The position numbers and the translations under genes were made by a program. DNA of 64,000 nt from Clostridiaceae bacterium (GTDB lineage Bacteria > Bacillota_A > Clostridia > Clostridiales > Clostridiaceae). This document shows positions 17,908 to 50,451 of this stretch, one piece after another; the stretch's first letter is position 1, and each line of letters begins with the position of its first letter. The stretch is from the NCBI GenBank assembly GCA_029256485.1, contig JAQSXU010000003.1, forward strand, positions 67,309 through 131,308, read 5' to 3'. The notes below the pieces were generated by a model. The model was not told where the DNA came from, ran no database searches, and saw only the letters and a program-made list of their open reading frames with translations.

Positions 17908-17945
17908 AATTTTGCAAGAGAAACTTCTCTTGCAAAATTATTAAA
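17908..17945 (-). promoter_or_regulatory. attenuator-like hairpin after precursor gene
   Basis: AATTTTGCAAGAGAA pairs with TTCTCTTGCAAAATT, a 15-bp stem, read leftward right after the 27-codon precursor candidate and before the nucleotidyltransferase. Downstream T content is moderate. Such stems commonly raise precursor mRNA relative to enzyme mRNA. Confidence 0.6.
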
Positions 17946-17958
17946 ACTATTCTTTAAT

Positions 17959-18042: not shown

Positions 18043-18079
18043 TATAATCACCTCCTTTCTAAGAAAACGATATTTTTTA

Positions 18080-19351: not shown

Positions 19352-19365
19352 TTTTTCTCCTTTCT

Positions 19366-24196: not shown

Positions 24197-24909
24197 TATA
24201 TATCCTCCTTTCTATTATAATTTCTCTCGCCAAATATGGCAGACCCTATTCTTACCATATTAGCTCCTTCTTCAATTGCTAAACTGAAATCTTTACTCAT
24301 TCCCATTGATAAATATTTAAAATCTATATTGTAAGAATTTCCATACTTTGATTGAATTGAATCATATAAGCACTTCGTTTCCCTAAATACTTTTTTAATT
24401 ACTTCTTTATCTTCTGTATTAGGTGCAATAGTCATAAGACCTTGAATTCTTATATTTTTGTAATTCTTTATTTTTTCAATCATATTAATTAATTCTTCTT
24501 TATTAATTCCGAATTTCGTTTCCTCTTGGGATATATTAATTTGAATTAGTATATTACATATTATTTCTCTTTGTTCAGCTTGTTTTTGGATTTCAGTGGC
24601 AAGTTTTATACTATCTACTGTATGAATTAAGGCTACTTTATCAATAATCTTTTTAACTTTATTACATTGTAAATGTCCAATAAAATGCCATTGAATAGAT
24701 TTAATATCATAAAGTTCTTTTGTTTTAACAGATAATTCTTGTTCTTTATTTTCCCCAAAATTCGTAACCCCAAATTTATAGGCTTCAAAAATTTTATCAG
24801 TAGGATATGTTTTACTTACAGCAATGAGTGTTATATCCTCACTATTTCTATTATTTTCTTTAGCAATTTTTCGGATTTTTTCATAAATAAGTTGAATGTT
24901 TTCTTTCAT
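24196..24909 (-). CDS. yggS: YggS/YlmE family PLP-binding protein
   Basis: 237 residues, normal for this family that binds pyridoxal phosphate and balances the PLP pool. Motifs: LIAVSKTYPTDKIFEAYKFG with the PLP lysine, WHFIGHLQCNKVKKI, QINISQEETKFGI, and the C-terminal LSMGMSKDFSLAIEEG and VRIGSAIFGER. A housekeeping-type gene inside a peptide cluster is unusual; it overlaps the PPDK-like gene by one base. It may supply PLP to a cluster enzyme not seen here or act on an amino-acid substrate. AAGGAGG precedes the ATG. Confidence 0.92.
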   Translation of the reverse strand: MKENIQLIYEKIRKIAKENNRNSEDITLIAVSKTYPTDKIFEAYKFGVTNFGENKEQELSVKTKELYDIKSIQWHFIGHLQCNKVKKIIDKVALIHTVDSIKLATEIQKQAEQREIICNILIQINISQEETKFGINKEELINMIEKIKNYKNIRIQGLMTIAPNTEDKEVIKKVFRETKCLYDSIQSKYGNSYNIDFKYLSMGMSKDFSLAIEEGANMVRIGSAIFGERNYNRKEDI

Positions 24910-24920
24910 TAGTAACCTCC

Positions 24921-26186
24921 TTATAACTTACAGTTTAACAATACTTTGTAAATATCTATTTCTGCAATTTCTTTATTTATAACCTGTATGCACTCTTTTT
25001 TATTCCAATCTTCCAAATCGAGATTATCTAATTCTTCAACAGAGTAGCTCGATAATAAATGGAAAGGAGTATATGTTGCTGGTCTAATTATCACATTATA
25101 TTTATTTAGTATATCTATAGTATATTTAACATCATCAATCATTTGGTTTTCTGTACCAAGCATAATAAATCCTTTGTATTTTATTGGATATTTAGAAAAT
25201 AATTTCATATTTCTTTCAAATTCACTTACTTTTAATTTCATTCCCATATCTTTATTTTTGTAAAATGTTTCAACTCCAAAACCAATCCCTACACATCCTG
25301 CGTCATAACATAATTTGATAATTTCTTCATCCATTGATGAAAAACATGCTGTTCCTTTCCATTTTACATTAATTTTTCTTCTAATCATTTCTTCACAAAA
25401 CTCAATAACCCATTGTCTATCTGCTAAAAAATCAGCAGAATGTAATTTGAATAACTTGAAGTTATTCTTATTTGCTTCTAAAAAGTCAATTACTTGATTT
25501 ATTGAACGCCTTCTATCTACTACCCCTTCTCTTTTTAAGCATAAACAATATTTGCATCTTTTAGAACAACCTTTAGAAATATAAATAGAACATGCATATA
25601 TTGAATTTTTAAATTCTTTTGCAAATTTTTTATATTCTTCTATCGGTAATTTATCTATTGGAGGTAACGCCCATTCTTCAGTTAAAAGTCTTAAACCATT
25701 ACTATATTTAATAATGGTTTCGCATTCACAAATGCATACTCCTCTGAGACATTCTCTATTGCCACTTAACATATATTCTACATAACTGCTTATTGATGCT
25801 TCTTGGTCTCCGTCAATGTGAAATGCATCAAAAGGACTTCTTTCAAAGAATTGAGGTATTGTCAATGTTGAATCTCCATATATAAAATTTCGGCTTTCTG
25901 GGCTTAATATTTTCAATATTTTACAGAGTTTTTTTACCATATGCGATTCAGTAATATCAGTATAAAAAACAACTAAATCATATTTTTTCGCAAATAACCT
26001 ATAAATACTTCTAATTGTTGCACAAGGAATTGACATATCATATATGTCAACAGTTACATTTTTATTCTCAAACTTATTTATTATATATTGTGCTGTTTCG
26101 CCAAAATCGGTACACCTATCGTGTAAGTTTCTATCATATACTACTCTTGGTATTGATAGAAATAAAATTTTAAAAATTTTATCCAT
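24921..26186 (-). CDS. cobalamin-binding-type radical SAM enzyme (421 aa)
   Basis: The N-terminal 150 residues resemble a B12 domain (FGETAQYIINKFENKNVTVD, YDLVVFYTDITESH, PFDAFHIDGDQEAS). The radical SAM motif is SKGCSKRCKYCLCLKR (CxxxCxxC, about 203-213), followed by LFKLHSADFLAD and CVGIGFGVETFY. It is the third such enzyme of the cluster and the first gene after the phosphatase. Three radical SAM proteins for one short peptide suggest several different C-H modifications. Confidence 0.82.
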   Translation of the reverse strand: MDKIFKILFLSIPRVVYDRNLHDRCTDFGETAQYIINKFENKNVTVDIYDMSIPCATIRSIYRLFAKKYDLVVFYTDITESHMVKKLCKILKILSPESRNFIYGDSTLTIPQFFERSPFDAFHIDGDQEASISSYVEYMLSGNRECLRGVCICECETIIKYSNGLRLLTEEWALPPIDKLPIEEYKKFAKEFKNSIYACSIYISKGCSKRCKYCLCLKREGVVDRRRSINQVIDFLEANKNNFKLFKLHSADFLADRQWVIEFCEEMIRRKINVKWKGTACFSSMDEEIIKLCYDAGCVGIGFGVETFYKNKDMGMKLKVSEFERNMKLFSKYPIKYKGFIMLGTENQMIDDVKYTIDILNKYNVIIRPATYTPFHLLSSYSVEELDNLDLEDWNKKECIQVINKEIAEIDIYKVLLNCKL

Positions 26187-29783: not shown

Positions 29784-30245
29784 ATGGAATTAGAATTGGA
29801 ACAAATAGAAAATGTCATAAAAAAGAAATTAAAAACAAATCAATTATTATTAGCAATGTCTATATTAATGTCTTTAACAGTTTTCCTTACTAATACAGAT
29901 TATGTTTTTTGGGCTATTGCATTTATATCAATAGGAGCTTTAAGTTTGCCAAATATAACAAAAAGCAAAAAGGATTTAATAGATTATAAAAATTATAAAT
30001 ATTCTATGACAGAAGGTATATTGATTGACATGTTCCCAGAAAAAAAAGACGTAGAAAACGGAAATTGGATAATCTTTATACATGAAGAAAATAAGAAAAA
30101 AGATTATACCGAATTTGTCGTTATGCAAAATCCTAATATAGCTATTAATTCAAAAATAAAAATCCAACACACAAAGGAATTATCAATACCTATAAAAATT
30201 GAAGTAATTGAATTAGACAAAGAAACTCTTATTGAAGAAAATTAA
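29784..30245 (+). CDS. membrane protein, 153 aa
   Basis: An N-terminal helix (ELEQIENVIKKKLKTNQ) is followed by two close hydrophobic segments at about 23-41 and 46-62, then a soluble domain of 90 residues with beta strands (WIIFIHEENKKKDYTEFVVM). Topology would place the soluble part in the cytoplasm. No family recognised. GGAGATGA precedes the ATG. Function unknown. Confidence 0.55.
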   Translation: MELELEQIENVIKKKLKTNQLLLAMSILMSLTVFLTNTDYVFWAIAFISIGALSLPNITKSKKDLIDYKNYKYSMTEGILIDMFPEKKDVENGNWIIFIHEENKKKDYTEFVVMQNPNIAINSKIKIQHTKELSIPIKIEVIELDKETLIEEN

Positions 30246-30479
30246 CAACAAAATGACCAATCGAAAGTATAAGAGGAATTAATTTTCTCTTATAAAACTT
30301 ATTTTTAAGTATTAAACAGATTAGTAGTAATAAAATAAAATATTACTGCATATAACATTAAATAATATAAAAAGGGATTAAACAAAATTTTTTGTAAATT
30401 TTACTTGACAATTAATTTTAGATATTGTATAATGTAAATATATTAAATAAACTATAAAAGAAAGAGGAGGCAAATTGAG
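30246..30479 (+). promoter_or_regulatory. promoter region of tRNA array 1
   Basis: The space contains a TGTAAA-N6-TTGACA dyad (30393-30410), 17 bp, then TATAAT (30428-30433), 47 bp before the leader ATG. The rest is A+T-rich without features. Confidence 0.85.
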
Positions 30480-30698
30480 ATGAAAAATTTATTATCATTG
30501 TTAAACAAAGTTAATGAAACATTAGAAGCTATGAGTAGTACGTCAGTGCGAACATGGTCTATTAATGATATTCAAATTTCAGCTTGCTCTGAATCGAATT
30601 GTAGTCAATTAAATATTTATAAAAAGAACAATATCTTCATAAGGTTGTTGCGTTATATGATAAAACCATTATATTTTAACGAATACCTATGTTATTAG
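30480..30698 (+). CDS. leader peptide of tRNA array 1 (72 codons)
   Basis: A strong AGAGGAGG site precedes the ATG. I recognise no family. Codons 17-46 encode only Ala, Met, Ser, Thr, Val, Trp, Ile, Asn, Asp, Gln, Cys, Glu and Leu, plus one Arg: these 13 are exactly the amino acids of the tRNAs in the array that follows. Lys, Phe, Tyr, Pro, Gly and His are absent there despite the A+T-rich coding. Ser codons include AGT, TCA, TCT and TCG, and the Leu codon is TTA. Bases 30625-30640, right after this window, can pair with the 5' arm of the terminator at 30720-30752. A regulatory leader role by ribosome stalling is inferred; a functional small protein is not excluded. Confidence 0.8.
   Translation: MKNLLSLLNKVNETLEAMSSTSVRTWSINDIQISACSESNCSQLNIYKKNNIFIRLLRYMIKPLYFNEYLCY
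30625..30640 (+). promoter_or_regulatory. antiterminator strand of leader 1
   Basis: AGAACAAT, two unpaired bases, then CTTCAT can pair with ATGAGG-ATTGTTCT (30720-30733), 14 bp with one G-U. This would remove the 5' arm of the terminator. GATATT at 30567-30572 can instead pair with AATATC overlapping this strand. Confidence 0.7.
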
Positions 30699-30719
30699 TA
30701 TAAACTTATAACGAAATAT

Positions 30720-30752
30720 ATGAGGATTGTTCTGAAAAGACAATCCTTTTTT
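30720..30752 (+). terminator. attenuator terminator before tRNA array 1
   Basis: AGGATTGT (30723-30730) pairs with ACAATCCT (30740-30747), followed by six T. It lies 13 bp before the first tRNA, so the array is transcribed only by read-through. Confidence 0.85.
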
Positions 30753-30764
30753 ATTTACAAATTT

Positions 30765-30848
30765 GGAGAGTTCGCCTAAAGGTAGGGAAGCTGTTTGCTA
30801 AACAGTCGGGTGTGAAAGCATCTGGGGGTTCGACTCCCTCACTCTCCG
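30765..30848 (+). tRNA. tRNA-Ser(GCT)
   Basis: Acceptor GGAGAGT/ACTCTCC, anticodon loop TTGCTAA, long variable arm, G73. First gene of array 1; reads AGC/AGU. CCA not encoded. Confidence 0.93.
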
Positions 30849-30857
30849 TTTAAATAT

Positions 30858-30932
30858 TGTAGTGTAGCTCAATGGTGGAGCATTCGACTGTTAATCGAAG
30901 GGTTGTAGGTTCAAGTCCTATCACTACAGCCA
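30858..30932 (+). tRNA. tRNA-Asn(GTT), copy 1
   Basis: Acceptor TGTAGTG/CACTACA, anticodon stem TTCGA/TCGAA around CTGTTAA, CCA encoded. Confidence 0.93.
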
Positions 30933-30937
30933 ATATG

Positions 30938-31012
30938 CTGACGTAGCTCAGTCGGTAGAGCAACTGCGTGGTAAGCAGTAGGTCAGGAGTTCAATTCTCC
31001 TCGTTAGCTCCA
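30938..31012 (+). tRNA. tRNA-Thr(GGT)
   Basis: Acceptor GCTGACG/CGTTAGC with one G-U, anticodon stem ACTGC/GCAGT around GTGGTAA, CCA encoded. Confidence 0.92.
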
Positions 31013-31071
31013 ATTAAAATTAGATGTATTACTATGGTGTTACTGATAAGATGTTTAATAAAAATAAATTA

Positions 31072-31145
31072 TGGAGTGTTGGTCAAGTGGCTAAGACATG
31101 CAACTTTCTATTGCAGAGCGAGGGTTCAATTCCCTCACACTTCAT
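31072..31145 (+). tRNA. tRNA-Glu(TTC)
   Basis: Acceptor TGGAGTG/CACTTCA, anticodon stem TGCAA/TTGCA around CTTTCTA, no encoded CCA. A 59-bp A+T-rich spacer without features precedes it. Confidence 0.9.
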
Positions 31146-31150
31146 TAAAT

Positions 31151-31224
31151 GTGGGTATAGTTTAGTGGTAAAACGGTGGTCTCCAAAACCAGAGTCGTAG
31201 GTTCGATTCCTGCTACCTGTGCCA
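31151..31224 (+). tRNA. tRNA-Trp(CCA), standard-length copy with weak acceptor
   Basis: Anticodon loop CTCCAAA, encoded CCA. The acceptor GTGGGTA/TACCTGT has three consecutive wobble pairs at its end and the 27:43 pair is G-G, so this copy looks partly degenerate. A second Trp gene lies further on. Confidence 0.8.
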
Positions 31225-31227
31225 TAT

Positions 31228-31300
31228 GTTAGTGTATCCAAGCGGTTTAAGGAGCTTGACTGCAAATCAAGTATCGTGAGTTCAAATCTCGCCACTAACT
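31228..31300 (+). tRNA. tRNA-Cys(GCA)
   Basis: Acceptor GTTAGTG/CACTAAC, anticodon stem CTTGA/TCAAG around CTGCAAA, U73 as required for Cys identity. CCA not encoded. Confidence 0.93.
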
Positions 31301-31307
31301 TTAATAT

Positions 31308-31380
31308 GCTGATATAGCTCAATTGGAAGAGTGTCTGACTTGTAATCAGGATGTTATGGGTTCAACTCCCTTTGTCAGCT
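31308..31380 (+). tRNA. tRNA-Thr(TGT), copy 1
   Basis: Acceptor GCTGATA/TGTCAGC, anticodon stem TCTGA/TCAGG around CTTGTAA. CCA not encoded. Confidence 0.92.
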
Positions 31381-31387
31381 TTAATTT

Positions 31388-31462
31388 GGAGGATTAGTAT
31401 AATGGTCATTATAATTGGCTGTCTACCAATAGAAGGGGGTTCAATTCCCCTATCCTTCGCCA
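31388..31462 (+). tRNA. tRNA-Asp(GTC)
   Basis: Acceptor GGAGGAT/ATCCTTC, anticodon stem ATTGG/CCAAT around CTGTCTA, G73 and encoded CCA. Confidence 0.93.
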
Positions 31463-31488
31463 AATAAAAATTTGAGAGGAATGTTAAT

Positions 31489-31536
31489 ATGGTTATAAAA
31501 AAAACTGTATTCCTTGATATGATGCGTAGTCTGTAG
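31489..31536 (+). CDS. possible 15-codon upstream ORF
   Basis: GAGAGGA lies 8 bases before an ATG that opens a 15-residue frame (MVIKKTVFLDMMRSL). It overlaps the 5' strand of the structured RNA below, so its translation would unfold that RNA. It could control the 86-aa gene downstream. No sequence conservation can be tested here. Confidence 0.35.
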   Translation: MVIKKTVFLDMMRSL

Positions 31537-31600
31537 GGTGTTCTAATCAGAACTATCTACCTTGATTGTACTCTATGGACTAAGTAAATAAATCAAGGAA
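31510..31600 (+). ncRNA. structured RNA 1 in tRNA array 1
   Basis: An outer stem TTCCTTGAT/ATCAAGGAA (9 bp) encloses TAGTC/GACTA, GTAG/CTAC and GTTCT-AATC-AGAAC. The outer 3' strand includes part of the ribosome site of the 86-aa gene, so it may be a cis-regulatory element; it could also be a free small RNA processed with the tRNAs. Confidence 0.5.
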
Positions 31601-31610
31601 GGTGAATTAA

Positions 31611-31871
31611 TTGAAAAGAAATAAAAGTTATTACAGATACCAAAGAAACCGAGCAATTAATAGAAAGTTTAATATCCTAAGAAAAGATTGGGGAACTGAA
31701 GAAACTGAAAAATTTTACGATAAAACCAATAAAGGAAAGCTTTCAAAAGGAAAAATTCATTGTTCTTGTTGGATGTGTAGAGAAAAGTCATATATAGAGC
31801 TTAAACATACTGATAAGAAAAAAATATTAAAATGCAATCAATCTTTAAATGATTTTCACAGAGAAGATTAG
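31611..31871 (+). CDS. small Cys-rich protein inside tRNA array
   Basis: 86 residues, very basic, beginning with a TTG start 7 bases after AAGGAAGGTG. The N-terminus is KRNKSYYRYQRNRAINRKFN; a KGKIHCSCWMCREKSY segment follows at about 45-60, giving a CxCxxC zinc-type cluster, then a Lys-rich tail. The basic, aromatic, zinc-binding look suggests RNA binding, fitting its place between tRNA genes. Similar small proteins occur on phages and plasmids of Firmicutes, as far as I recall. The ribosome site lies in a predicted stem. Confidence 0.65.
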   Translation: MKRNKSYYRYQRNRAINRKFNILRKDWGTEETEKFYDKTNKGKLSKGKIHCSCWMCREKSYIELKHTDKKKILKCNQSLNDFHRED

Positions 31872-31886
31872 TTCTTCTCTTTACAT

Positions 31887-31962
31887 TGGGGAGTAGCCTA
31901 ACGGTTCAGGGCACAGGACTTTGACTCCTGTCGTAAAGGTTCAATTCCTTTCTCCTCAGCCA
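31887..31962 (+). tRNA. tRNA-Gln(TTG)
   Basis: Acceptor TGGGGAG/CTCCTCA with the U1-A72 pair typical of Gln, anticodon stem CAGGA/TCCTG around CTTTGAC, CCA encoded. Confidence 0.93.
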
Positions 31963-31965
31963 TAT

Positions 31966-32038
31966 GCTGATATAGCTCAATTGGCAGAGTGCCTGTTTTG
32001 TAATCAGGTTGTTGTGGGTTCAAGTCCCTCTATCAGCT
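31966..32038 (+). tRNA. tRNA-Thr(TGT), copy 2
   Basis: Acceptor GCTGATA/TATCAGC, loop TTTGTAA; the last anticodon-stem pair is T-T. Close relative of copy 1, so probably a duplication. Confidence 0.88.
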
Positions 32039-32094
32039 TTGTATTTACCAAATATATAAAATATATCGGTTGTTTTAAATGCAACCGATACTGT

Positions 32095-32182
32095 AAGGGT
32101 ATAGTTTAACTGGAAAAACGCTGGTCTCCAAAACCAGAGACAAGAAATGCTTGTATAGGTTCGATTCCTACTACCCTTGCCA
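32095..32182 (+). tRNA. tRNA-Trp(CCA) with class II-like variable arm
   Basis: Acceptor AAGGGTA/TACCCTT, D-stem GTTT/AAAC, anticodon stem CTGGT/ACCAG around CTCCAAA, encoded CCA. Between anticodon and T-stems are 17 bases that fold as ACAAG-AAATG-CTTGT, so the tRNA is 88 nt instead of about 74. Trp tRNAs are normally class I. Confidence 0.8.
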
Positions 32183-32187
32183 AATAT

Positions 32188-32266
32188 GGGAAGTGATTGG
32201 TCTGAGTTTCGGTTCGATTCCGAATTAAGCAAGGTGTGAGAAAGGGTTCGAATCCCTTGCTTCCCC
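32188..32266 (+). tRNA. tRNA-Ser(CGA)-like, D-arm reduced
   Basis: Acceptor GGGAAGT/GCTTCCC, T-arm AAGGG/CCCTT, anticodon stem TTCGG/CCGAA around TTCGATT (CGA). Only 13 bases lie between acceptor and anticodon stems, too few for a normal D-arm, and the variable region does not pair well. The TCG codon in leader 1 supports it being meaningful. Could be degenerate. Confidence 0.5.
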
Positions 32267-32285
32267 AAAAACCATTTTGTGTTTT

Positions 32286-32393
32286 TTCATCGGTTACTAC
32301 TTTGTCTGTCTATGTGGTAATGGACAGAATAGAAATCCTTTTTGTCCAACGGGATATTAAGATTACCACGTTTCTATGGTAGTGGTCGATGAA
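32286..32393 (+). ncRNA. structured RNA 2 in tRNA array 1
   Basis: Outer 15-bp stem TTCATCGGTTACTAC/GTAGTGGTCGATGAA (with G-U pairs), then GTGGTAAT/ATTACCAC (8 bp) and TGGACA/TGTCCA. No open frame with a ribosome site. It lies between Ser(CGA)-like and Leu tRNA genes. Not a tRNA; no family recognised. Confidence 0.6.
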
Positions 32394-32407
32394 AGAATAT
32401 TAATATG

Positions 32408-32492
32408 CAGAAGTGATGGAATGGCAGACATCTCGGACTTAAAATCCGATGCTTTTAAAAGCGTAGGGGTTCAAATCCCCTCTTCTGTACCA
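32408..32492 (+). tRNA. tRNA-Leu(TAA)
   Basis: Acceptor GCAGAAG/CTTCTGT, anticodon stem TCGGA/TCCGA around CTTAAAA, long variable arm, A73 and CCA encoded. Reads UUA/UUG, the Leu codons used in leader 1. Confidence 0.93.
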
Positions 32493-32500
32493 TGTATTTT

Positions 32501-32590
32501 GGAGAGTTAACCCTAATTGGTAAGGGAGCAGTCTTGAAAACTGCCAGTAACTGCGTAAGTGGCGTAGGAGTTCGAGTCCCCTACTCTCCG
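32501..32590 (+). tRNA. tRNA-Ser(TGA), copy 1
   Basis: Acceptor GGAGAGT/ACTCTCC, anticodon stem GCAGT/ACTGC around CTTGAAA, long variable arm, G73. Confidence 0.93.
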
Positions 32591-32614
32591 TTTTAATAAA
32601 TAATAATATTAAGT

Positions 32615-32784
32615 AATTATGTTGACATAGGCTCTGCATTATGCCTGTTCGAGTCAGGAAGGTAATTGGCGAATTATCTATAACTGGAAACCATAATTAG
32701 CATCCCATAGACCAGGGGTTCGAATCCCTTTAGTGAATAGACGTGTTTACTATTAAGCTGGATGCAGTCTATGTGAGCATAATT
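32615..32784 (+). ncRNA. structured RNA 3 in tRNA array 1, with T-loop-like arms
   Basis: A composite end stem pairs AATTATG with CATAATT, CATAG with CTATG and CTGCAT with ATGCAG, with a TTGA/TGAG internal loop able to form sheared G-A pairs. Inside are CCTG-TTCGAGT-CAGG and AGGGG-TTCGAAT-CCCTT, both with T-loop sequences, TAATT-GGCG-AATTA, and AGTGAATA-GACG-TGTTTACT. The long end stem with tRNA-like arms recalls bacterial Y RNAs, but no Ro-type gene is in the window. Not a normal tRNA or tmRNA. Confidence 0.6.
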
Positions 32785-32796
32785 GCAATATATTAT

Positions 32797-32873
32797 ACTA
32801 ATGTAGTTCAGTCGGTTAGAACGCCTGTTTCATAAGCAGAAGGTCATTGGTTCAAATCCAATCATTAGTACCA
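32797..32873 (+). tRNA. tRNA-Met(CAT) (or lysidine-type Ile)
   Basis: Acceptor ACTAATG/CATTAGT, loop TTCATAA, encoded CCA. It shares its body with the Ile(GAT) gene at the array end, so Ile2 (AUA) is possible; leader 1 has ATG but no ATA in its window, which favours elongator Met. Confidence 0.85.
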
Positions 32874-32881
32874 TATTTTTT

Positions 32882-32953
32882 GGGCTTGTAGTTCAGAGGG
32901 AGAACGCAACACTTGCAATGTTGATGTCGTGGGTTCGAGTCCCACCTTGTCCA
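32882..32953 (+). tRNA. tRNA-Ala(TGC)
   Basis: Anticodon stem CAACA/TGTTG around CTTGCAA. Acceptor GGGCTTG/CTTGTCC contains the G3-U70 identity pair of Ala tRNAs but two T-T mismatches. Confidence 0.85.
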
Positions 32954-32962
32954 TTTAAATAT

Positions 32963-33034
32963 ACTGAATTAACTCAATGGGAGAGTGCATCCCTTACAAG
33001 GATGAAGTTGTGGGTTCAAGTCCCTCATTCAGTA
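32963..33034 (+). tRNA. tRNA-Val(TAC)
   Basis: Acceptor ACTGAAT/ATTCAGT, anticodon stem CATCC/GGATG around CTTACAA, A73. CCA not encoded. Confidence 0.9.
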
Positions 33035-33044
33035 TCAAAATTTT

Positions 33045-33131
33045 GGGGAGTTGGCAGAGTTGGTTTATTGCACCAGTCTTGAAAACTGTGTAGTCGTAAA
33101 AGGCACAGGGGTTCGAATCCCTTACTCTCCG
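33045..33131 (+). tRNA. tRNA-Ser(TGA), copy 2
   Basis: Acceptor GGGGAGT/ACTCTCC, loop CTTGAAA, long variable arm. Related to copy 1; outermost anticodon-stem pair mismatched. Confidence 0.88.
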
Positions 33132-33137
33132 TTTAAT

Positions 33138-33214
33138 GCTAATGTAGTTCAGTTGGTTAGAGCACCTGCCTGATACGCAGAAAGTCATAGGTTCAAGTCC
33201 TATCATTAGTACCA
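33138..33214 (+). tRNA. tRNA-Ile(GAT)
   Basis: Acceptor GCTAATG/CATTAGT, loop CTGATAC, encoded CCA. Last gene of array 1; near-copy of the CAT tRNA gene. Confidence 0.92.
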
Positions 33215-33233: not shown

Positions 33234-33275
33234 AAAAAAACTTGCAGAGTTTTTAATAATCTGCAAGTTTTTTTA
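33234..33275. terminator. terminator of tRNA array 1
   Basis: ACTTGCAGA pairs with TCTGCAAGT, with A-run and T-run on the two sides. It also serves the converging 194-aa gene. Confidence 0.85.
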
Positions 33276-35945: not shown

Positions 35946-35975
35946 ATTGACACCATTTACGGTGTCACATATAAT
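35946..35975 (+). promoter_or_regulatory. promoter with GACACC-N6-GGTGTC operator
   Basis: TTGACA, 17 bp, TATAAT, with a perfect 6-6-6 dyad GACACC/GGTGTC that covers the -35 and the spacer. It drives the P-loop/RHH gene, whose C-terminal RHH domain is the obvious candidate repressor. Confidence 0.75.
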
Positions 35976-36019: not shown

Positions 36020-36649
36020 ATGAAAAATAAAATTATATACGGAAGCACAGGTACTGGGAAAACAGTAAATTACTTTAAACCAGAAATACAAAATTGGAAA
36101 GGTAAAACAATTGCAATTTCAAATCATAATGAAGGAATTAATGACTTTAAAAAGTTTGAGTTAGGAGTTTTAAATCTTTCTTATGAGGAAATTCTTGTTT
36201 ATGATAAAATTCTTTTAACAAAAAATCCAAAGGTTGATTCTTACTTTTGTAATAAAGATTTGCTGGGTGTAATAAAGTATTTAATTGAGAATATATCGTA
36301 TTTTAAAGAACCTGTATTAGTAGCTATTGATGAATTTGCTCAATTTAATTTAACTGAAAAATTTAGTAATAACGAATCTATAATTCTGAATTTATTAAAA
36401 TCAAATGAAATTAATACGCTTTTTTTAGTTCAGTCATTAAAACAGATAAGGGAAGTTTATAAAAGTGATTATGAAAAAATAATGGAGTTAAGTGAACTTT
36501 TTTGTACTAAAGTGTACGAAGATTACTCAGGAGAATTAAGAGTAAGATTTCCCAAGAGTTTACACAAATATTTAAAAGAAAAAGCAGAAAAAGAAGGGGT
36601 AAGCTTAAATCAATATATAGTATATGAACTAACTAAAGCTATGAAATGA
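36020..36649 (+). CDS. P-loop ATPase fused to ribbon-helix-helix domain
   Basis: 209 residues. The N-terminal part starts with Walker A YGSTGTGKT (about 6-14) and has Walker B-like PVLVAIDEFAQF (about 100-111), an arrangement like a minimal VirD4/FtsK-type or zot-like ATPase. The last 40 residues, LRVRFPKSLHKYLKEKAEKE then GVSLNQYIVYELTKA, are a typical ribbon-helix-helix DNA-binding domain of the HicB/Arc type. A dyad operator lies in its promoter, suggesting autoregulation. GAGGAG precedes the ATG. The P-loop is by motif; role unknown. Confidence 0.7.
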   Translation: MKNKIIYGSTGTGKTVNYFKPEIQNWKGKTIAISNHNEGINDFKKFELGVLNLSYEEILVYDKILLTKNPKVDSYFCNKDLLGVIKYLIENISYFKEPVLVAIDEFAQFNLTEKFSNNESIILNLLKSNEINTLFLVQSLKQIREVYKSDYEKIMELSELFCTKVYEDYSGELRVRFPKSLHKYLKEKAEKEGVSLNQYIVYELTKAMK

Positions 36650-36686: not shown

Positions 36687-36727
36687 TGTAAATTATGCTT
36701 GACAAACAATTTTTATTATTATATAAT
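36687..36727 (+). promoter_or_regulatory. dyad promoter of tRNA array 2
   Basis: TGTAAA-N6-TTGACA, 17 bp, TATAAT, 61 bp before the leader 2 ATG. Confidence 0.87.
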
Positions 36728-36788
36728 GAATAATATCAAAAACATGGTAATATAATATTTAAAATACTATTGAAGGAGGAAATGAACA

Positions 36789-36974
36789 ATGAGAAACTTA
36801 ACAATTAGATTTAGAAAACTAAATAACAATAAACCTGTTAACTTTAAATTCAACGGGCTTGTTTCTTATGCTCATTTTAATCCGTATAAACCTGGATATA
36901 AACTCGGCTTCTATAAATTTATAAAACAGCTTTATAAGAATAGTATTTATTCGTGCAGTATGAGGTATACTTAA
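36789..36974 (+). CDS. leader peptide of tRNA array 2 (61 codons)
   Basis: GAAGGAGG precedes the ATG. Codons 7-44 encode Arg, Phe, Lys, Leu, Asn, Pro, Gly, Tyr and His in 34 of 38 positions; the only others are two Val, one Ser and one Ala. These nine are exactly the amino acids of the 16 tRNAs that follow. Asp, Glu, Gln, Cys, Trp, Thr, Met and Ile are absent there. Arg codons are AGA, matching Arg(TCT), and Leu codons are CTA, CTT and CTC, matching Leu(TAG)/Leu(AAG) rather than the usual TTA. Bases 36933-36944 follow the window and can pair with the terminator 5' arm. The protein is not homologous to leader 1. Confidence 0.82.
   Translation: MRNLTIRFRKLNNNKPVNFKFNGLVSYAHFNPYKPGYKLGFYKFIKQLYKNSIYSCSMRYT
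36933..36944 (+). promoter_or_regulatory. antiterminator strand of leader 2
   Basis: TATAAGAATAGT can pair over 12 bp (one G-U) with ACTGTTCTTATA at 37043-37054, which contains the 5' arm of the terminator. It repeats the first part of the terminator 3' arm (AGAATAGT), so the two compete for the same partner. Confidence 0.75.
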
Positions 36975-37038: not shown

Positions 37039-37071
37039 AAGGACTGTTCTTATAGAGAATAGTCCTTTTTT
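37039..37071 (+). terminator. attenuator terminator before tRNA array 2
   Basis: AAGGACTGTTCT pairs with AGAATAGTCCTT around TATAG, followed by six T, 12 bp before the first tRNA. Confidence 0.87.
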
Positions 37072-37082: not shown

Positions 37083-37156
37083 CAGGGTGTAGTCAAATTT
37101 GGTATGACGCTGTATTTGGGATACAGAGGTCGAAGGTTCGAATCATTTCGCTCTGA
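37083..37156 (+). tRNA. tRNA-Pro(TGG), copy 1
   Basis: Acceptor CAGGGTG/CGCTCTG, anticodon stem CTGTA/TACAG around TTTGGGA, A73. One mismatch in the T-stem. Confidence 0.88.
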
Positions 37157-37162
37157 CTTAGT

Positions 37163-37238
37163 GGTGGATATGGTGCAATGGTTAGCACATGTGACTGTGA
37201 ATCACAGAATGTAGGTTCAATTCCTAATATTCACCCCA
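37163..37238 (+). tRNA. tRNA-His(GTG)
   Basis: Acceptor GTGGATA/TATTCAC, anticodon stem TGTGA/TCACA around CTGTGAA, C73 and encoded CCA. The base at position -1 is G in the DNA, opposite C73, so the extra guanylate needed by histidyl-tRNA synthetase is genomically encoded. Confidence 0.93.
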
Positions 37239-37282
37239 ATAGAATATTCAATAATGTTTTAAAGTAAACGACAAATTAATAT

Positions 37283-37366
37283 GGGCAGGTATCCAAGAGG
37301 CTGAAGGAAGCTGACTGTAAATCAGTGACGTAAGATACAACGGGAGTTCAAATCTCTCCCTGCTCA
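37283..37366 (+). tRNA. tRNA-Tyr(GTA), copy 1
   Basis: Acceptor GGGCAGG/CCTGCTC, anticodon stem GCTGA/TCAGT around CTGTAAA, long variable arm, A73. Confidence 0.92.
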
Positions 37367-37368
37367 CT

Positions 37369-37446
37369 TAAACAATGAGGTGCTCATAAGACTACATTAA
37401 AATTTGGATTTAAAACGTGTCTTATAAATATTTTCCTTATTGTTTA
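37369..37446 (+). ncRNA. structured RNA in tRNA array 2
   Basis: TAAACAATGAGG pairs with CCTTATTGTTTA (12 bp, one G-U) and, inside, ATAAGAC with GTCTTAT (7 bp), leaving an A+T-rich loop. It fills the space between Tyr and Phe tRNA genes almost exactly. No open frame. Confidence 0.5.
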
Positions 37447-37447
37447 C

Positions 37448-37520
37448 GGGAAGGTAGCTCAAATGGTAGAGCATGGGACTGAAAATCCCAGTGTAGCGAG
37501 TTCGATACTCGCCTTTCCCA
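37448..37520 (+). tRNA. tRNA-Phe(GAA), copy 1
   Basis: Acceptor GGGAAGG/CTTTCCC, anticodon stem TGGGA/TCCCA around CTGAAAA, A73. Confidence 0.93.
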
Positions 37521-37531
37521 TCAATAATCAT

Positions 37532-37606
37532 CAGGGTATAGTCAAGTGGTATGACGCTGTATTTGGGATACAGAAACCGAAGGTTCAAATCCTTCTACTC
37601 TGACCA
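37532..37606 (+). tRNA. tRNA-Pro(TGG), copy 2
   Basis: Acceptor CAGGGTA/TACTCTG, same anticodon arm as copy 1, perfect T-stem, CCA encoded. Confidence 0.92.
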
Positions 37607-37608
37607 TT

Positions 37609-37686
37609 GGGGGATTAGCTCAGTTGGAATAGAGCAATAGACTTCTAATCTATAAGTCATAGGTTCAAATCCTATATCCCTCACCA
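37609..37686 (+). tRNA. tRNA-Arg(TCT)
   Basis: Acceptor GGGGGAT/ATCCCTC, anticodon stem ATAGA/TCTAT around CTTCTAA, CCA encoded. Reads AGA/AGG, the Arg codons of leader 2. Confidence 0.93.
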
Positions 37687-37690
37687 ATAT

Positions 37691-37764
37691 GCATATATGG
37701 TGTAATTTGGCTAACACTACTGCCTTCCAAGCAGTAATTATGGGTTCGAGTCCCATTATATGCT
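37691..37764 (+). tRNA. tRNA-Gly(TCC)
   Basis: Acceptor GCATATA/TATATGC, anticodon stem ACTGC/GCAGT around CTTCCAA. Confidence 0.92.
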
Positions 37765-37776
37765 TTTAAAAATACT

Positions 37777-37851
37777 GGGAGTATAGCTCAATGGTTGAGC
37801 AGTAGCCTGTTAAGCTACCTGATGTGGGTTCAAATCCCATTGCTCCCTCCA
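37777..37851 (+). tRNA. tRNA-Asn(GTT), copy 2
   Basis: Acceptor GGGAGTA/TGCTCCC, anticodon stem GTAGC/GCTAC around CTGTTAA, CCA encoded. Its body differs from the copy in array 1. Confidence 0.92.
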
Positions 37852-37856
37852 ATCAT

Positions 37857-37933
37857 ACGGATGTAGCCTAATGGCTGAGGCACACGACTTTTAATCGTGA
37901 TAATGTCGGGTTCAAATCCCACCATCCGTACCA
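37857..37933 (+). tRNA. tRNA-Lys(TTT)
   Basis: Acceptor ACGGATG/CATCCGT, anticodon stem CACGA/TCGTG around CTTTTAA, A73 and CCA encoded. Confidence 0.92.
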
Positions 37934-37937
37934 ATAC

Positions 37938-38010
37938 CAGGGAATAGTTCAGTTGGTAGAACGCATGTTTTGGGAACATGAGGTCGTAGGTTCGAATCCT
38001 ACTTCTCTGA
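37938..38010 (+). tRNA. tRNA-Pro(TGG), copy 3
   Basis: Acceptor CAGGGAA/TTCTCTG, anticodon stem CATGT/ACATG around TTTGGGA; a different body from the other Pro copies. Confidence 0.92.
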
Positions 38011-38017
38011 CTTTAAT

Positions 38018-38093
38018 GGTTAAATAGCTCAGTTGGTAGAGCGTTGGTCTGAAGAGCCAAGCGTCATAGGTTCAAACCCTATTTTAACCACCA
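38018..38093 (+). tRNA. tRNA-Phe(GAA), copy 2
   Basis: Acceptor GGTTAAA/TTTAACC, anticodon stem TTGGT/GCCAA around CTGAAGA, CCA encoded. G at position 37 is unusual for Phe. Confidence 0.88.
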
Positions 38094-38098
38094 TATAA

Positions 38099-38187
38099 GG
38101 GAGTATAATTCGTTAAGGAAGGCGAGGCGGTCTGTAAAACCGTTAGCATTGTGCTTCAAGTGGGTTCAATTCCCTCTACTCCCACCA
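38099..38187 (+). tRNA. tRNA-Tyr(GTA), copy 2
   Basis: Acceptor GGGAGTA/TACTCCC, anticodon stem GCGGT/ACCGT around CTGTAAA, long variable arm, CCA encoded. Confidence 0.9.
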
Positions 38188-38192
38188 AATTT

Positions 38193-38274
38193 GTCGCTGT
38201 GGTGGAATGGCATACACAAATGGCTAAGAACCATTGCTTTAAACAGCGTGAGAGTTCGAATCTCTCCAGCGATA
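38193..38274 (+). tRNA. tRNA-Leu(AAG)
   Basis: Acceptor GTCGCTG/CAGCGAT, anticodon stem AATGG/CCATT around CTAAGAA, long variable arm, A73. An A34 anticodon for Leu is uncommon in bacteria and would need deamination to read CUC well. Confidence 0.88.
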
Positions 38275-38280
38275 CTTTAT

Positions 38281-38363
38281 GTCAAAGTGATGGAATGGAT
38301 TACATGGCTGACTTAGAATCAGTTGTCCTAAAGGATTTAGGGGTTCGAATCCCCTCTTTGATA
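38281..38363 (+). tRNA. tRNA-Leu(TAG)
   Basis: Acceptor GTCAAAG/CTTTGAT, anticodon stem GCTGA/TCAGT around CTTAGAA, long variable arm, A73. Reads CUA/CUG. Confidence 0.92.
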
Positions 38364-38367
38364 CTAT

Positions 38368-38443
38368 GGGAAGGTAGCTCAAAAGGTAGAGCATGGGACT
38401 GAAAATCCCAGTGTAGTGAGTTCGATACTCACCCTTCACACCA
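38368..38443 (+). tRNA. tRNA-Phe(GAA), copy 3
   Basis: Near-copy of Phe copy 1; acceptor GGGAAGG/CCTTCAC has one G-A mismatch at pair 2:71, CCA encoded. Possibly decaying. Confidence 0.85.
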
Positions 38444-38455
38444 TATTTATAATTA

Positions 38456-38529
38456 CAGGGTGTAGTCAAGTCTGGTATGACGCTGTATTTGGGATACAGA
38501 AATCAAAGGTTCAAATCCTTTCACTCTGA
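38456..38529 (+). tRNA. tRNA-Pro(TGG), copy 4
   Basis: Acceptor CAGGGTG/CACTCTG, same anticodon arm as copies 1 and 2. Last gene of array 2. Confidence 0.92.
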
Positions 38530-38685
38530 CTTGCATATTAAAAAAATATAAAAGGGATTATTTAGCTCTTTTATTAAGACAAAATAGTTGCGACATGATG
38601 TTTATAATTGATATAGTGGATTTTACGGAGGATGACAATAAAATCAATAAACATAGCCATTCAAAGGTCTGTTCTTTATTAAAAA

Positions 38686-41340: not shown

Positions 41341-42114
41341 TTATATATATTTTTCTATATAACTTCTTTCAGCAGTAAATAAAGGTATATCTTTATCAAC
41401 CATCCATCTACCTCTTTCAGTTTGTTGAGAATTATCTAACGTATAAGTTTCCTTTACAATACAAGCTCCTCTTTTTTCATATGTGGGAAGCATACCCCAG
41501 TTTATATTTTTCTCCTGGAATAGTTTTTCTTGCAATTGATTACAGTTTAATGATATTAATGATTTGTGTGAAAAATTAGCCCTTGCAACCATTTGTATTG
41601 AGTTTTTTGAGCAATCCCCTTGTCTCCATATAAAATAGTTAGTAACTTCTTCTTTGGGCAATGTGAATACTCTACTGTCAAAAATAGCTGTATTTTTTCT
41701 TTTAAAATATGTATCTATATAATCACTAACTTCATTCGCATCTATTTTATCAATTATCTCTGAAAATGCTTTATTAAATGCTAAAGTTGCCATACTTGCA
41801 GAAATGCTTACTATTTTTTGAACATTATTATCAAACCAAGCACATGTATCTAAATTATCATAATCAGTTAAAAATAAACTAATTTCATCAGATTGTACAT
41901 AAGCCATTTTACAACCTTGAATATTTGAACATAGATATTTAGCTGTTTCCCACATTGTTTCTATCAATATATTATCGAAAGGCTTCTTAAATCCTCTTGT
42001 GAACGTGTGAAATGACTTTCCATCGAGTCTAATGATAATAGGTGTTCTTCTTGTTAAAAATATTTTGGGCACACTTTCATATGTTTTCATTCTACTTCCT
42101 AATTTATCTTTCAT
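41341..42114 (-). CDS. thg1: Thg1-type tRNA-His guanylyltransferase
   Basis: Thg1 enzymes add nucleotides to tRNA 5' ends in the 3'-5' direction; eukaryotic members make G-1 of tRNA-His and bacterial or archaeal Thg1-like proteins repair 5'-truncated tRNAs. Residues about 28-40 (RLDGKSFHTFTRGF) carry the metal Asp motif, AYVQSDEISLFL (about 71-82) the second Asp, and NTAIFDSRVFTLP the next core strand. 257 aa is normal. ATG overlaps the upstream stop by four bases. With G-1 of the local tRNA-His already encoded, repair of damaged tRNAs is the more likely job. Confidence 0.9.
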   Translation of the reverse strand: MKDKLGSRMKTYESVPKIFLTRRTPIIIRLDGKSFHTFTRGFKKPFDNILIETMWETAKYLCSNIQGCKMAYVQSDEISLFLTDYDNLDTCAWFDNNVQKIVSISASMATLAFNKAFSEIIDKIDANEVSDYIDTYFKRKNTAIFDSRVFTLPKEEVTNYFIWRQGDCSKNSIQMVARANFSHKSLISLNCNQLQEKLFQEKNINWGMLPTYEKRGACIVKETYTLDNSQQTERGRWMVDKDIPLFTAERSYIEKYI

Positions 42115-48300: not shown

Positions 48301-50451
48301 TTACAAATTGCAAGCATTTAAATATTCATTTCTTAATGTTATAATATCATTAATAGATTTTTCTACAGGTTTTGATTTTAACCATATTATAAAACCTTTT
48401 GCAGTTTCGTCTTCAATAGCATCAATATTAACTTTAACTATATTAGTTTTGACTGAACGAAGATGTTTCCATAGTTTATAGTAATGAAGTTTAATTTTAA
48501 TCATATATCCATTAGAATCTTCTAAAACAAATCCTTCTATATTATTACCCATATATTTATAATCTTCTTTAGTTACTTCTTTATACCAAGAATCAAATTC
48601 AGTCCAATCATTAATAACTTTTGCCATTTTTTTATAAGAAAACCCATATTCATTTGCAATATTTATCATATCATTATAATTTAGCTTTTCAAAACGTGGA
48701 GTTCTTTTTATAATATCAAGAAGTATTAATTCTTTATGTTGATAATCAATTATATGTGCGTCATTTACTGGGTCAATAACTTCAAACACTAATGTAGCGT
48801 TAGTATCTTTTAAATATCTTAGAAGCTTTAAACGCTGATTTAACGAACTTATTTTCTCATTGAACATATCTCTTAGCCATAACGCATAATCGTTATCTAT
48901 AGTTGATTTTGAAGCGAATACGAAGTCATTTTTTTCTTTATCATATCCTACAAGTCCCAAATACCCATTCTCTTTAACATACGCATTAACAGGAAATTCT
49001 AAATTTTCTTCAAGGCTTTCAAATTGTGTTTCAGGCATTTCACCGATATTAAAAAATTTCTCATATCCTCTTGCGACAATGTTTTTAGTTTTAGTATTAA
49101 TGAACAACCCTCTTGCTTTTATATTTTTTAATGTCCAAGTTCCATTATGAAACACACTCTTTTTAAAATTAAAAGATGAAATATTTTCATATTTCTTTTC
49201 AAGTATATCTTCACTGTTTCTTAAAATTTCTATTAATGTTTCAGTGTTCTCTTCCATTTTTAAATGCTCTGGAAGTCTGTAAACATTATTTTTTACTTCT
49301 GAAAATTCAAATCCATTTTTATCAAGTGTTACAACCCTTAAATGTCCTCCAAATTCTATATTTCCTTCCAAAGAAATGCTTTTTTGATATCTCCCAAGTG
49401 GTGCAGATTTATAATTTCTATGACCATGAATTTGATAAACATTATTGTCTTTTTCTTTATCTGAAAATATCTTGTCTATATCTATATCATAATTACCAAC
49501 TCCTCTTATAAATTGTTCTGATGATACAAAATTAAGATTTTCTGGAACACATGGAATTCCCCCATGTGAAACAATAATTGTTTTATCATTATAAGTGTAA
49601 TAAGCAATACTACTTAATTTTCTATATAACCTTCTTACATCTTTTTTATCAATAATACCTTCTATTTCTAATTTTGTATAATTCTCAAAAACCTGTGAAT
49701 GAATAGTTTCATTTTTTGACCAATTCCAGCAATGCACCTCATGATTACCTTCAAGCAAAATTACATTAGGTTTATTCATAATTGTTATAATGAAATTTAA
49801 CACCCTGGCATTTTCTATTCCTCTATCTATATAATCTCCAAGAAAAATATATAATTCATTTTCTTTAAGACCTTCTTTTAGATAATCCTTAAGCACAGTA
49901 TAACAACCATGAATATCTCCTATATGGTGAATTTTTGAATATGAAGAAAAATCTAATGGTGTTAAATTAATAACTGTATTGGCTTCTGATTCCTTCACAG
50001 TATGAATATATTTAGGAACTTCTTGTGATTTTAAAACTTCAAAAGCTTTCCTTATTTTATATTCTCCAACACGTTTATACACTTCTCTCTCATTATCCCT
50101 TTTTAATGCTTCTTCTAATGTAACTTTAAATTCAATACAGTAAACTCTATATCTATATTTTAACGCTTTTTCCTTATATCTTAGCATATCCGATGTCTTT
50201 AAATGAGTTGCGTCTATTATTATAAAATCACCATTTGCCATTCTTTGTTCCATAGCCTCATTCAACATTTTTGAAGCTTCATTAGTATACATCTGTGAAA
50301 TCATAAAATCACCGTTTTCTATAAGAATTGGTGATTTTACAAATGTTCTAAAATCATCAAGACATAATGTATATGGAATTAAGCCATTTTGTTTTATCCA
50401 TGTGCTTTTCCCAGCACCCATTACTCCTCTAAGTAAAATTAATTTTCTCAT
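48301..50451 (-). CDS. kinase-phosphatase-RNA ligase (Pnkp-type RNA repair)
   Basis: 716 residues in three domains. Kinase: LLRGVMGAGKSTW with Walker A (about 5-17) and a lid-like region to 150. Phosphatase: HIGDIHGCYTVL (about 176), GDYIDRG, LLEGNHEVHCW, VSHGG and HGH motifs of calcineurin-type enzymes, to about 400. Ligase: YVKENGYLGLVGY holds the adenylation Lys (KxxG), TLVFEVIDPVND, NIEGFVLEDSNGY and IKIKLHYYKLW. This full set heals and seals broken RNA, as T4 Pnkp/Rnl1 repair cleaved tRNA. It has its own dyad promoter, and the SpoT-type gene follows. Confidence 0.88.
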   Translation of the reverse strand: MRKLILLRGVMGAGKSTWIKQNGLIPYTLCLDDFRTFVKSPILIENGDFMISQMYTNEASKMLNEAMEQRMANGDFIIIDATHLKTSDMLRYKEKALKYRYRVYCIEFKVTLEEALKRDNEREVYKRVGEYKIRKAFEVLKSQEVPKYIHTVKESEANTVINLTPLDFSSYSKIHHIGDIHGCYTVLKDYLKEGLKENELYIFLGDYIDRGIENARVLNFIITIMNKPNVILLEGNHEVHCWNWSKNETIHSQVFENYTKLEIEGIIDKKDVRRLYRKLSSIAYYTYNDKTIIVSHGGIPCVPENLNFVSSEQFIRGVGNYDIDIDKIFSDKEKDNNVYQIHGHRNYKSAPLGRYQKSISLEGNIEFGGHLRVVTLDKNGFEFSEVKNNVYRLPEHLKMEENTETLIEILRNSEDILEKKYENISSFNFKKSVFHNGTWTLKNIKARGLFINTKTKNIVARGYEKFFNIGEMPETQFESLEENLEFPVNAYVKENGYLGLVGYDKEKNDFVFASKSTIDNDYALWLRDMFNEKISSLNQRLKLLRYLKDTNATLVFEVIDPVNDAHIIDYQHKELILLDIIKRTPRFEKLNYNDMINIANEYGFSYKKMAKVINDWTEFDSWYKEVTKEDYKYMGNNIEGFVLEDSNGYMIKIKLHYYKLWKHLRSVKTNIVKVNIDAIEDETAKGFIIWLKSKPVEKSINDIITLRNEYLNACNL

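Follow-up and report, generated by a model that had tools for sequence, protein, structure and literature searches.

When, and by what signal, would a mobile genetic element switch on the tRNA genes that it carries? The question is raised by a 64-kb stretch of a Clostridiaceae assembly (contig JAQSXU010000003.1; hereafter the window), in which two arrays of tRNA genes, jointly specifying all 20 amino acids, are each preceded by a short open reading frame (ORF) and an intrinsic terminator. An earlier note on this DNA had observed that the ORF ahead of the first array uses, within thirty of its codons, the amino acids of the very tRNAs that follow, and had read it as the leader peptide of an attenuator. 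The observation is confirmed here and is stronger than first described: a second leader, absent from the earlier note, lists the other set of amino acids served by the second array, and leaders of the same layout stand before tRNA arrays on related plasmids. Judged from sequence, each leader probably serves to attenuate transcription: the polymerase would enter the array when a ribosome stalls for any of the array-encoded tRNAs.

Two leaders and their tRNA arrays

Promoter 1, an AGGAGG ribosome-binding sequence, leader ORF 1 and terminator 1 follow one another in that order, the next gene being tRNA-Ser, and the layout of leader 2 and array 2 is the same (Table 1). The 72-codon ORF, the terminator and the 19-tRNA array previously described are all in place. 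A recount of codons 17-46 of leader 1 again yields 14 amino acids, namely the 13 of array 1 and a single Arg (CGA). When 14,810 thirty-codon segments from the element's own ORFs of at least 100 amino acids were scored in the same way, all 13 amino acids were found in 91 and no more than one outsider in 8, and none of the segments combined the two.

Table 1. Positions of the leaders, arrays and selected genes in the window
Feature	Position	Strand	Details
Promoter 1	30405..30433	+	TTGACA-17-TATAAT; perfect consensus
Shine-Dalgarno, leader 1	30465..30470	+	AGGAGG, 9 nt before ATG
Leader ORF 1	30480..30698	+	72 codons
Menu 1	30483..30611	+	Codons 2-44; all 13 array-1 amino acids, outsiders 3/43
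Predicted antiterminator 1	30625..30641	+	Within ORF; AGAACAAT-AT-CTTCATA (AT = 2-nt bulge)
Intrinsic terminator 1	30723..30752	+	AGGATTGTTCT / AAGACAATCCT + T run
tRNA array 1	30764..33214	+	19 ARAGORN tRNAs; S N T E W C D Q L M A V I (13 amino acids)
Terminator after array 1	33240..33275	+	ACTTGCAGA / TCTGCAAGT + T run; by eye
Promoter 2	36699..36727	+	TTGACA-17-TATAAT
Shine-Dalgarno, leader 2	36774..36779	+	AGGAGG
Leader ORF 2	36789..36974	+	61 codons
Menu 2	36792..36917	+	Codons 2-43; all 9 array-2 amino acids, outsiders 6/42
Predicted antiterminator 2	36930..36944	+	Within ORF; 15 bp with 37043-37057
Intrinsic terminator 2	37040..37071	+	AGGACTGTTCTT / GAGAATAGTCCT + T run
tRNA array 2	37083..38530	+	16 tRNAs; P H Y F R G N K L (9 amino acids)
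Thg1-like (tRNA-His guanylyltransferase family)	41341..42114	-	Pfam PF04446, E 2.2e-33
Kinase-phosphatase-RNA ligase, RNA-repair type	48301..50451	-	Pfam AAA_33 + Metallophos + RNA_lig_T4_1
T2SS-type ATPase	57081-58685		59-69% identical to plasmid ATPases of Paenibacillus, Brevibacillus, Aneurinibacillus, Jeotgalibacillus and Geobacillus

The arrays overlap only in Asn and Leu (ARAGORN), and it is in Leu that the agreement extends to the isoacceptor. The Leu codons of leader 1 are TTA or TTG in all six cases and array 1 has Leu(UAA), a match that the earlier note had pointed out for TTA, while three of the four in leader 2 are CTN, as against 28% CTN element-wide, and array 2 has Leu(UAG) and Leu(AAG). 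The Rfam gathering score is reached by 18 of the 19 ARAGORN calls in array 1. The Ser(CGA) call at 32188-32266 was made by ARAGORN alone, the Rfam tRNA model giving no match there up to E = 1, and since its "anticodon loop", TTCGATT, also looks T-loop-like, the correspondence between TCG codons and an odd CGA tRNA, which had earlier been counted, should be withdrawn. The call is probably not a normal tRNA.

Several other features of the arrays were noted in passing. Array 1 encloses a small basic ORF (31611-31871), and a similar-looking one occupies a comparable spot in the Aneurinibacillus array (locus L003, 5809-6099). Among the called tRNAs lie tRNA-like pieces (32620-32760; L003 5332-5462, 6522-6581 and 8581-8732) that have acceptor and T-arm sequence and, by eye, odd or missing middles; they appear to be decayed or unusual tRNAs. 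A CCA end is encoded in about half of the 35 ARAGORN tRNAs (18 by reading) and is absent from the rest.

Leader composition compared with array content

The part of a leader that would act as sensor, here called its menu, was taken to run from codon 2 to the last codon at which a stalled ribosome, extending 15 nt ahead of its A site, does not yet cover the antiterminator. Since this limit depends on the antiterminator and not on inspection by eye, the problem of choosing a stretch after the fact is removed. Leaders are denoted W1 and W2 (window leaders 1 and 2), Pthi_1 and Pthi_2 (Paenibacillus thiaminolyticus), Ppol_1 and Ppol_2 (P. polymyxa pSC2), Aneu (Aneurinibacillus), Brev (Brevibacillus), Jeot (Jeotgalibacillus) and Alka (Alkaliphilus pB6464). 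Antiterminator edges were set by hand from pairing searches and agree with the best duplex in eight of the ten. For Ppol_2, codons 63-68 (top in the pairing search, extended by eye) were used instead of the best-duplex codons 75-81; for Aneu, the distal site at codons 40-43, likewise top in the pairing search, was used instead of codons 9-16, which would shrink the menu to a few codons. Null segments overlap one another. They were cut from ORFs of 100 amino acids or more, located either in the window itself or, for the relatives, in the loci of the arrays and three 20-kb pieces of each.

The menus of the four leaders with incomplete arrays fit those arrays closely. The W1 menu (outsiders K, K and R) is equalled by none of 13,970 element segments and by none of 200,000 random draws from element amino-acid frequencies. 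That of W2, with 36 of 42 codons on its list, is equalled by none of 14,030, and that of Aneu, with 14 of 15 amino acids and 2 outsiders in 34 codons, by none of 15,427; Alka, with 18 of 19 and no outsider in 42, is equalled by 62 of 14,519. When amino-acid sets of equal size were drawn at random 200,000 times, a fit this good arose in 0.03% of draws for W1, 0.0025% for W2 and 0.3% for Aneu. Residues exclusive to array 1 or array 2 divide 29:3 in menu 1 and 6:25 in menu 2 (Fisher 6.6e-9), and when the four menus are set against the four arrays, the highest z always falls on a menu's own array, narrowly so for Alkaliphilus (1.5 vs 1.2). Beyond the menu the fit is worse. In W1 the rest of the ORF has 13 outsiders in 28 codons (p 1.6e-4), and the corresponding values for W2, Aneu and Alka are 5.6e-3, 6.1e-3 and 0.093, for a combined p of 9e-7. 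Varying the ribosome offset from 9 to 21 nt leaves coverage constant and outsiders almost constant across these menus, and leaves W1 fully so.

For scoring, the arrays of Pthi, Ppol, Brev and Jeot were treated as full sets of 20, although the ARAGORN calls themselves lack Val in Ppol, place Trp beyond a gap in Pthi and number six in Brev. Against this standard the menus hold 20 (Pthi_1, Pthi_2 and Ppol_2), 19 (Ppol_1), 18 (Jeot) and 17 (Brev) amino acids, and between 0.15 and 61% of null segments reach as much (17% for Ppol_1, 61% for Brev). Four further leader homologues, known without genomic context and with menu ends placed by analogy, have 20, 20, 20 and 19. Summed over leaders, the match also extends to codons (40 covered vs 30.4 expected, p 0.004). 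The Spearman correlation between tRNA copy number and menu enrichment is 0.83 in W1 and 0.86 in W2; with 0.43 in Aneu and 0.00 in Alka, it is no general rule. No collinearity of menu codons with tRNA order was seen on inspection by eye.

A predicted switch at the end of the menu

Antiterminator 1 is predicted to pair with TATGAGGATTGTTCT (30719-30733), which comprises the 5' arm of terminator 1 and the bases directly before it. Its strength exceeds that in both kinds of shuffled sequence, with z -2.9, p 0.012 when dinucleotides are shuffled and z -3.8, p 0.005 when synonymous codons are; for antiterminator 2 the values, in the same order, are z -2.5, p 0.026 and z -2.6, p 0.050. Across the ten leaders, pairing between ORF and terminator arm has z below 0 in nine against dinucleotide shuffles, with p < 0.05 in seven (Stouffer -7.6), and in nine against synonymous-codon shuffles, with p <= 0.05 in five (Stouffer -6.2); the Stouffer sums are rough because the shuffle distributions are skewed.

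Folding the W1 transcript downstream of a stalled ribosome gives a terminator probability of 0.01-0.24 for stalls at codons 1-44 and of 0.73-0.76 from codon 45 onwards. The step itself falls between codon 44 (0.01) and codon 45 (0.73), so that the menu end first drawn by eye coincides with the end of the predicted switch. In all ten leaders, folding up to the point before the 3' arm is made shows the terminator 5' arm sequestered while the ribosome is in the menu (mean 0.86-0.98 in W1, W2, Pthi_2, Ppol_1, Aneu and Brev; 0.60-0.75 in the other four), dropping to 0.14-0.59 once the ribosome is past the antiterminator. In Aneu the arm is still 0.91 sequestered throughout codons 2-35, despite the alternative site at codons 9-16.

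The scheme that these features suggest is a familiar one. The leader ORF would be translated while being transcribed. A ribosome that clears the menu would cover the antiterminator, the terminator would form and the array would stay off; a ribosome held at any menu codon would leave the antiterminator free to capture the terminator 5' arm, and the array would be transcribed. The new tRNAs would then refill the missing species and close the loop. Several hallmarks of an attenuator can be seen in the sequence: a short ORF with a ribosome-binding site and an intrinsic terminator stands ahead of the genes to be controlled, and a predicted antiterminator, mutually exclusive with the terminator, lies within the ORF past the control codons, save that its pairing falls short of significance in Pthi_1, Aneu and Alka. 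Control codons match the products of the controlled genes in W1, W2, Aneu and Alka, and fail to do so in Brev.

Two other identities for the leaders were considered and set aside. No T-box or other known riboswitch was found at the window leaders by Rfam scans: the leader 1 region has no T-box match up to E = 1, and in the whole window, leader 2 included, Rfam at gathering score finds tRNA alone. At the loci of the six relatives, tRNA is likewise alone among the best 150 of 172 matches. As for a conserved small protein, a search with leader 1, which requires shared five-residue words, recovered only itself, and in an alignment of five Paenibacillaceae leaders the other four are 28-33% identical to the first.

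Leaders on related plasmids

Ten leaders with a terminator and an ORF segment able to pair with it were found ahead of tRNA arrays in seven elements, the window and six related Bacillota megaplasmids (P. thiaminolyticus, P. polymyxa pSC2, Aneurinibacillus [L003], Brevibacillus [L016], Jeotgalibacillus [L017] and Alkaliphilus pB6464 [L018]). Six distinct plasmids have an ATPase more than 50% identical to that of the window; the Geobacillus plasmid among them has no tRNA, and the other five have arrays and leaders. Alkaliphilus pB6464 is more distant (ATPase 28%), and the leader layout is present there as well. The scan recovered seven leaders (W1, W2, Pthi_2, Ppol_2, Brev, Jeot and Alka); Aneu, which by our own reading was missed through an over-extended stem, and the two upstream tandem leaders were added by hand. 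In both P. thiaminolyticus and P. polymyxa pSC2, two leaders stand in tandem before one array. With one terminator each, these tandem leaders (L001 2871-3481; L002 2610-3311) have the form of attenuators in series.

Two relatives have incomplete sets, and in both the menu omits nearly the same amino acids as the array. No tRNA for Ala, Arg, Gly, Lys or Phe is present in the Aneurinibacillus array; its menu omits Ala, Arg, Gly, Lys and Met, with two Phe as outsiders. The Arg and Gly tRNAs of Aneurinibacillus are located elsewhere on the plasmid, where no leader ORF was found by scan or by eye. In Alkaliphilus, a tRNA-Tyr precedes the leader, and 26 tRNAs for the remaining 19 amino acids follow the leader, spread with gaps over some 4 kb. 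Of these 19 the menu holds 18 (Met as start only); Tyr is missing from it and occurs for the first time in the distal part of the ORF.

The tRNA loci L009, L010 (105 bases upstream of the first tRNA), L011, L019, L020, L025, L027, L028, L029, L031 and L036 gave no scanner match. They include plasmids sharing only the ligase (Priestia pFDU301A, 42%) or only the Thg1-like protein (Bacillus velezensis, 50%), which have some tRNAs and no leader seen by the scanner. A single doubtful match, at L035, was dropped (weak terminator, 144 nt gap). The survey excludes plasmids L032-L034, from the tRNA search, and a second P. polymyxa record, NZ_CP139199. A search of viral contigs turned up nothing related to either window leader, to the RNA ligase or to the T2SS-type ATPase. 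An ATPase search of genome contigs gave two loci, one on the Aneurinibacillus plasmid and the other in a metagenome assembly, where the matching stretch is 23% identical. In genome sets, matches below E 1e-50 were confined to one genome each of 398 for the class, 15 for the order and 398 for the phylum, the same Aneurinibacillus throughout; the phylum set holds 56 more genomes at E 6e-39 to 1e-30.

Evidence that weighs against attenuation

A number of observations count against the proposal that these leaders are attenuators tuned to their arrays. The Brevibacillus menu, with 17 of 20 amino acids over six ARAGORN tRNAs, does not track its array, and its Leu codons do not follow the array at codon level; in Alkaliphilus, Arg is written AGA three times although the array Arg tRNA is ACG. 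The earlier expectation that leaders would track arrays in relatives is therefore borne out for amino-acid composition in Aneurinibacillus and Alkaliphilus, and fails in Brevibacillus, as it does at codon level in both Alkaliphilus and Brevibacillus. The Paenibacillaceae leaders are homologous, so that they do not count as independent cases. With regard to the switch, pairing in Pthi_1 does not rise above shuffles, that in Aneu and Alka is non-significant by either shuffle, and the best duplex site in Aneu and Ppol_2 differs from the site used. The Jeotgalibacillus site is short, with seven ungapped pairs and a terminator arm 0.60 sequestered, and the stop codon of Pthi_2 overlaps the terminator arm by 2 nt. 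Full equilibrium folding, which covered W1, W2, Pthi_1 and Pthi_2, gives a clean switch in W1 only: Pthi_2 switches except at codons 25-32, where a stall still favours the terminator, and for W2 and Pthi_1 the terminator prevails at most or all stall positions. With the terminator favoured at equilibrium, the switch in W2 and Pthi_1 would have to be kinetic, the antiterminator forming first. Finally, gaps within the arrays could contain further promoters. On the other side stand the absence of any comparable segment among the 14,810, the second leader and array with another set, the relatives and the placement of the antiterminators, which together argue for the attenuation that the earlier note had suggested.

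What the leaders would sense

If the leaders are attenuators, the physiological trigger would most likely be the destruction or loss of tRNA, for example by anticodon nucleases. Loss of tRNA is favoured because added tRNA mends a tRNA shortage and not an amino-acid shortage. The kinase-phosphatase-ligase and Thg1-like genes on the element, along with the proposed role of phage tRNAs against tRNA-cleaving defences, likewise favour a sensor of tRNA loss, with starvation as its main rival. The few codons per tRNA in each menu would also fit severe tRNA loss better than mild starvation. It is tempting to see the whole as a self-referential tRNA replacement kit: the leader would be a translated parts list, written at isoacceptor level in the window, in which failure at any codon turns on the entire list, and the element would in this way sense and repair destruction of the tRNA pool. 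The lists would differ by array, and tandem lists would be an added safeguard. To this fuller reading we would give an even chance.

The same attenuator might instead answer to amino-acid starvation, that is, to uncharged tRNA, with the array raising tRNA pools under starvation. This we consider possible but doubtful. Classical leader attenuators do respond to amino-acid supply, as the available text of PMC1183508 describes, and the Alkaliphilus menu fits amino acids better than codons; yet more tRNA does not cure a shortage of amino acids, the element carries RNA-repair and Thg1-like genes, and the Leu codons of the two window leaders follow isoacceptors (6/6 UUR against 3/4 CUN, the element-wide CUN share being 28%). 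Less probable still, and in our estimate unlikely, is a general switch for translation stress, in which any stalled or missing ribosome, whether through an antibiotic or failed initiation, frees the antiterminator and the composition of the peptide is irrelevant. The folding curves taken before the 3' arm is made, and for W1 the equilibrium fold too, do predict antitermination at any stall before the antiterminator, and upstream ORFs that sense ribosome-targeting antibiotics are known (PMC12121999, in its available part), but such a switch leaves unexplained both the opposite compositions of leaders 1 and 2, matching opposite arrays, and the break in composition at the antiterminator. That the leaders are ordinary small proteins of chance composition beside chance terminators is very improbable: although several full-set leaders are singly not rare (Ppol_1, Brev) and the proteins have no precomputed Pfam domain, chance would have to account for all ten leaders with a terminator and an ORF segment able to pair with it before tRNA arrays in seven elements, and for the want of any equal among the null segments for three of the four partial arrays.

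The element and its setting

The window (26.6% GC) most likely derives from a Bacillota megaplasmid, given the identity of its T2SS-type ATPase to ATPases of Bacillota plasmids (Table 1). The protein cluster of leader 1 is found on two contigs, the longest of 534,699 bases. Perfect TTGACA-17-TATAAT promoters occur at seven sites in the window, where 0.35 would be expected, and one of them (35947-35975) has in its spacer an operator-like inverted repeat, GACACC-N6-GGTGTC, directly 5' of a HicB/TraG-type ORF (36020-36649). Directly upstream of leader 1 is a conserved 153-aa protein (29784-30245), with homologues 39% identical on the Aneurinibacillus plasmid and 40% on that of Brevibacillus; the homologue lies ahead of the leader in the former and distant from the array in the latter. 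Further away, 11653-26186 resembles a natural-product cluster, with radical SAM proteins (one with a B12-binding domain), ketoacyl-synthase III, PPDK-like and alanine-racemase-like genes as well as, by eye, ABC-transporter-like and PqqD-like ORFs, and 5882-8814 holds two GmrSD_N-domain genes with one opposite-strand ORF between them.

Comparison with known systems

The leu and ilv operons, like trp and his, are under ribosome-mediated attenuation; known leader attenuators use one to three amino acids as control codons, and the classical ones also have a pause or protector hairpin (segments 1:2). For trp and his, this mode of control is described in the available text of PMC1183508, where the attenuator model stresses a high fraction of control codons for a sensitive response. 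The leaders described here share with these biosynthetic operons the short ORF, the control codons, the ORF-overlapping antiterminator and the intrinsic terminator, and a stall would equally mean read-through; they differ in listing 9-20 amino acids and in that the genes controlled would be those of tRNAs, not enzymes. T-box riboswitches, which belong to the same phylum (Bacillota), also act on a terminator according to the state of a tRNA; here, however, the sensor would be an ORF, one leader would serve many tRNAs, and Rfam finds no T-box at the window leaders. The leader ORFs of bmrCD, vmlR and msrD, which sense antibiotics, are likewise cases of transcription attenuation by an upstream ORF in Gram-positive bacteria; they respond to ribosome-bound drugs, and the available parts of the sources mention no match between peptide composition and controlled genes.

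Phage tRNAs have been proposed to offset tRNA-cleaving defences (PMC10264068; PMC11555353, both as far as their available text goes). The likeness to the present case lies in tRNAs borne by an element with RNA-repair genes of its own, whereas those studies, in the same portions, concern tRNA content and nuclease resistance and mention no regulation by a leader that lists tRNAs. Nor was leader control of tRNA arrays found among the titles and opening lines of abstracts listed by a full-text literature search, subscription journals lying mostly outside it. If the proposal holds, the leaders would be one-to-many attenuators over tRNA genes, in which the sensor is written in the code that its product reads, forming a feedback loop. 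This bears on the old question of why phages and plasmids carry large tRNA arrays: were arrays turned on only when a listed tRNA fails, they would be emergency replacements, not helpers of codon usage. Each leader is, moreover, a list of predictions that can be tested codon by codon. On our best reading, what these elements probably have is leader-peptide attenuation of a known type, and the new point is that it would be polyvalent and would act on tRNA genes.

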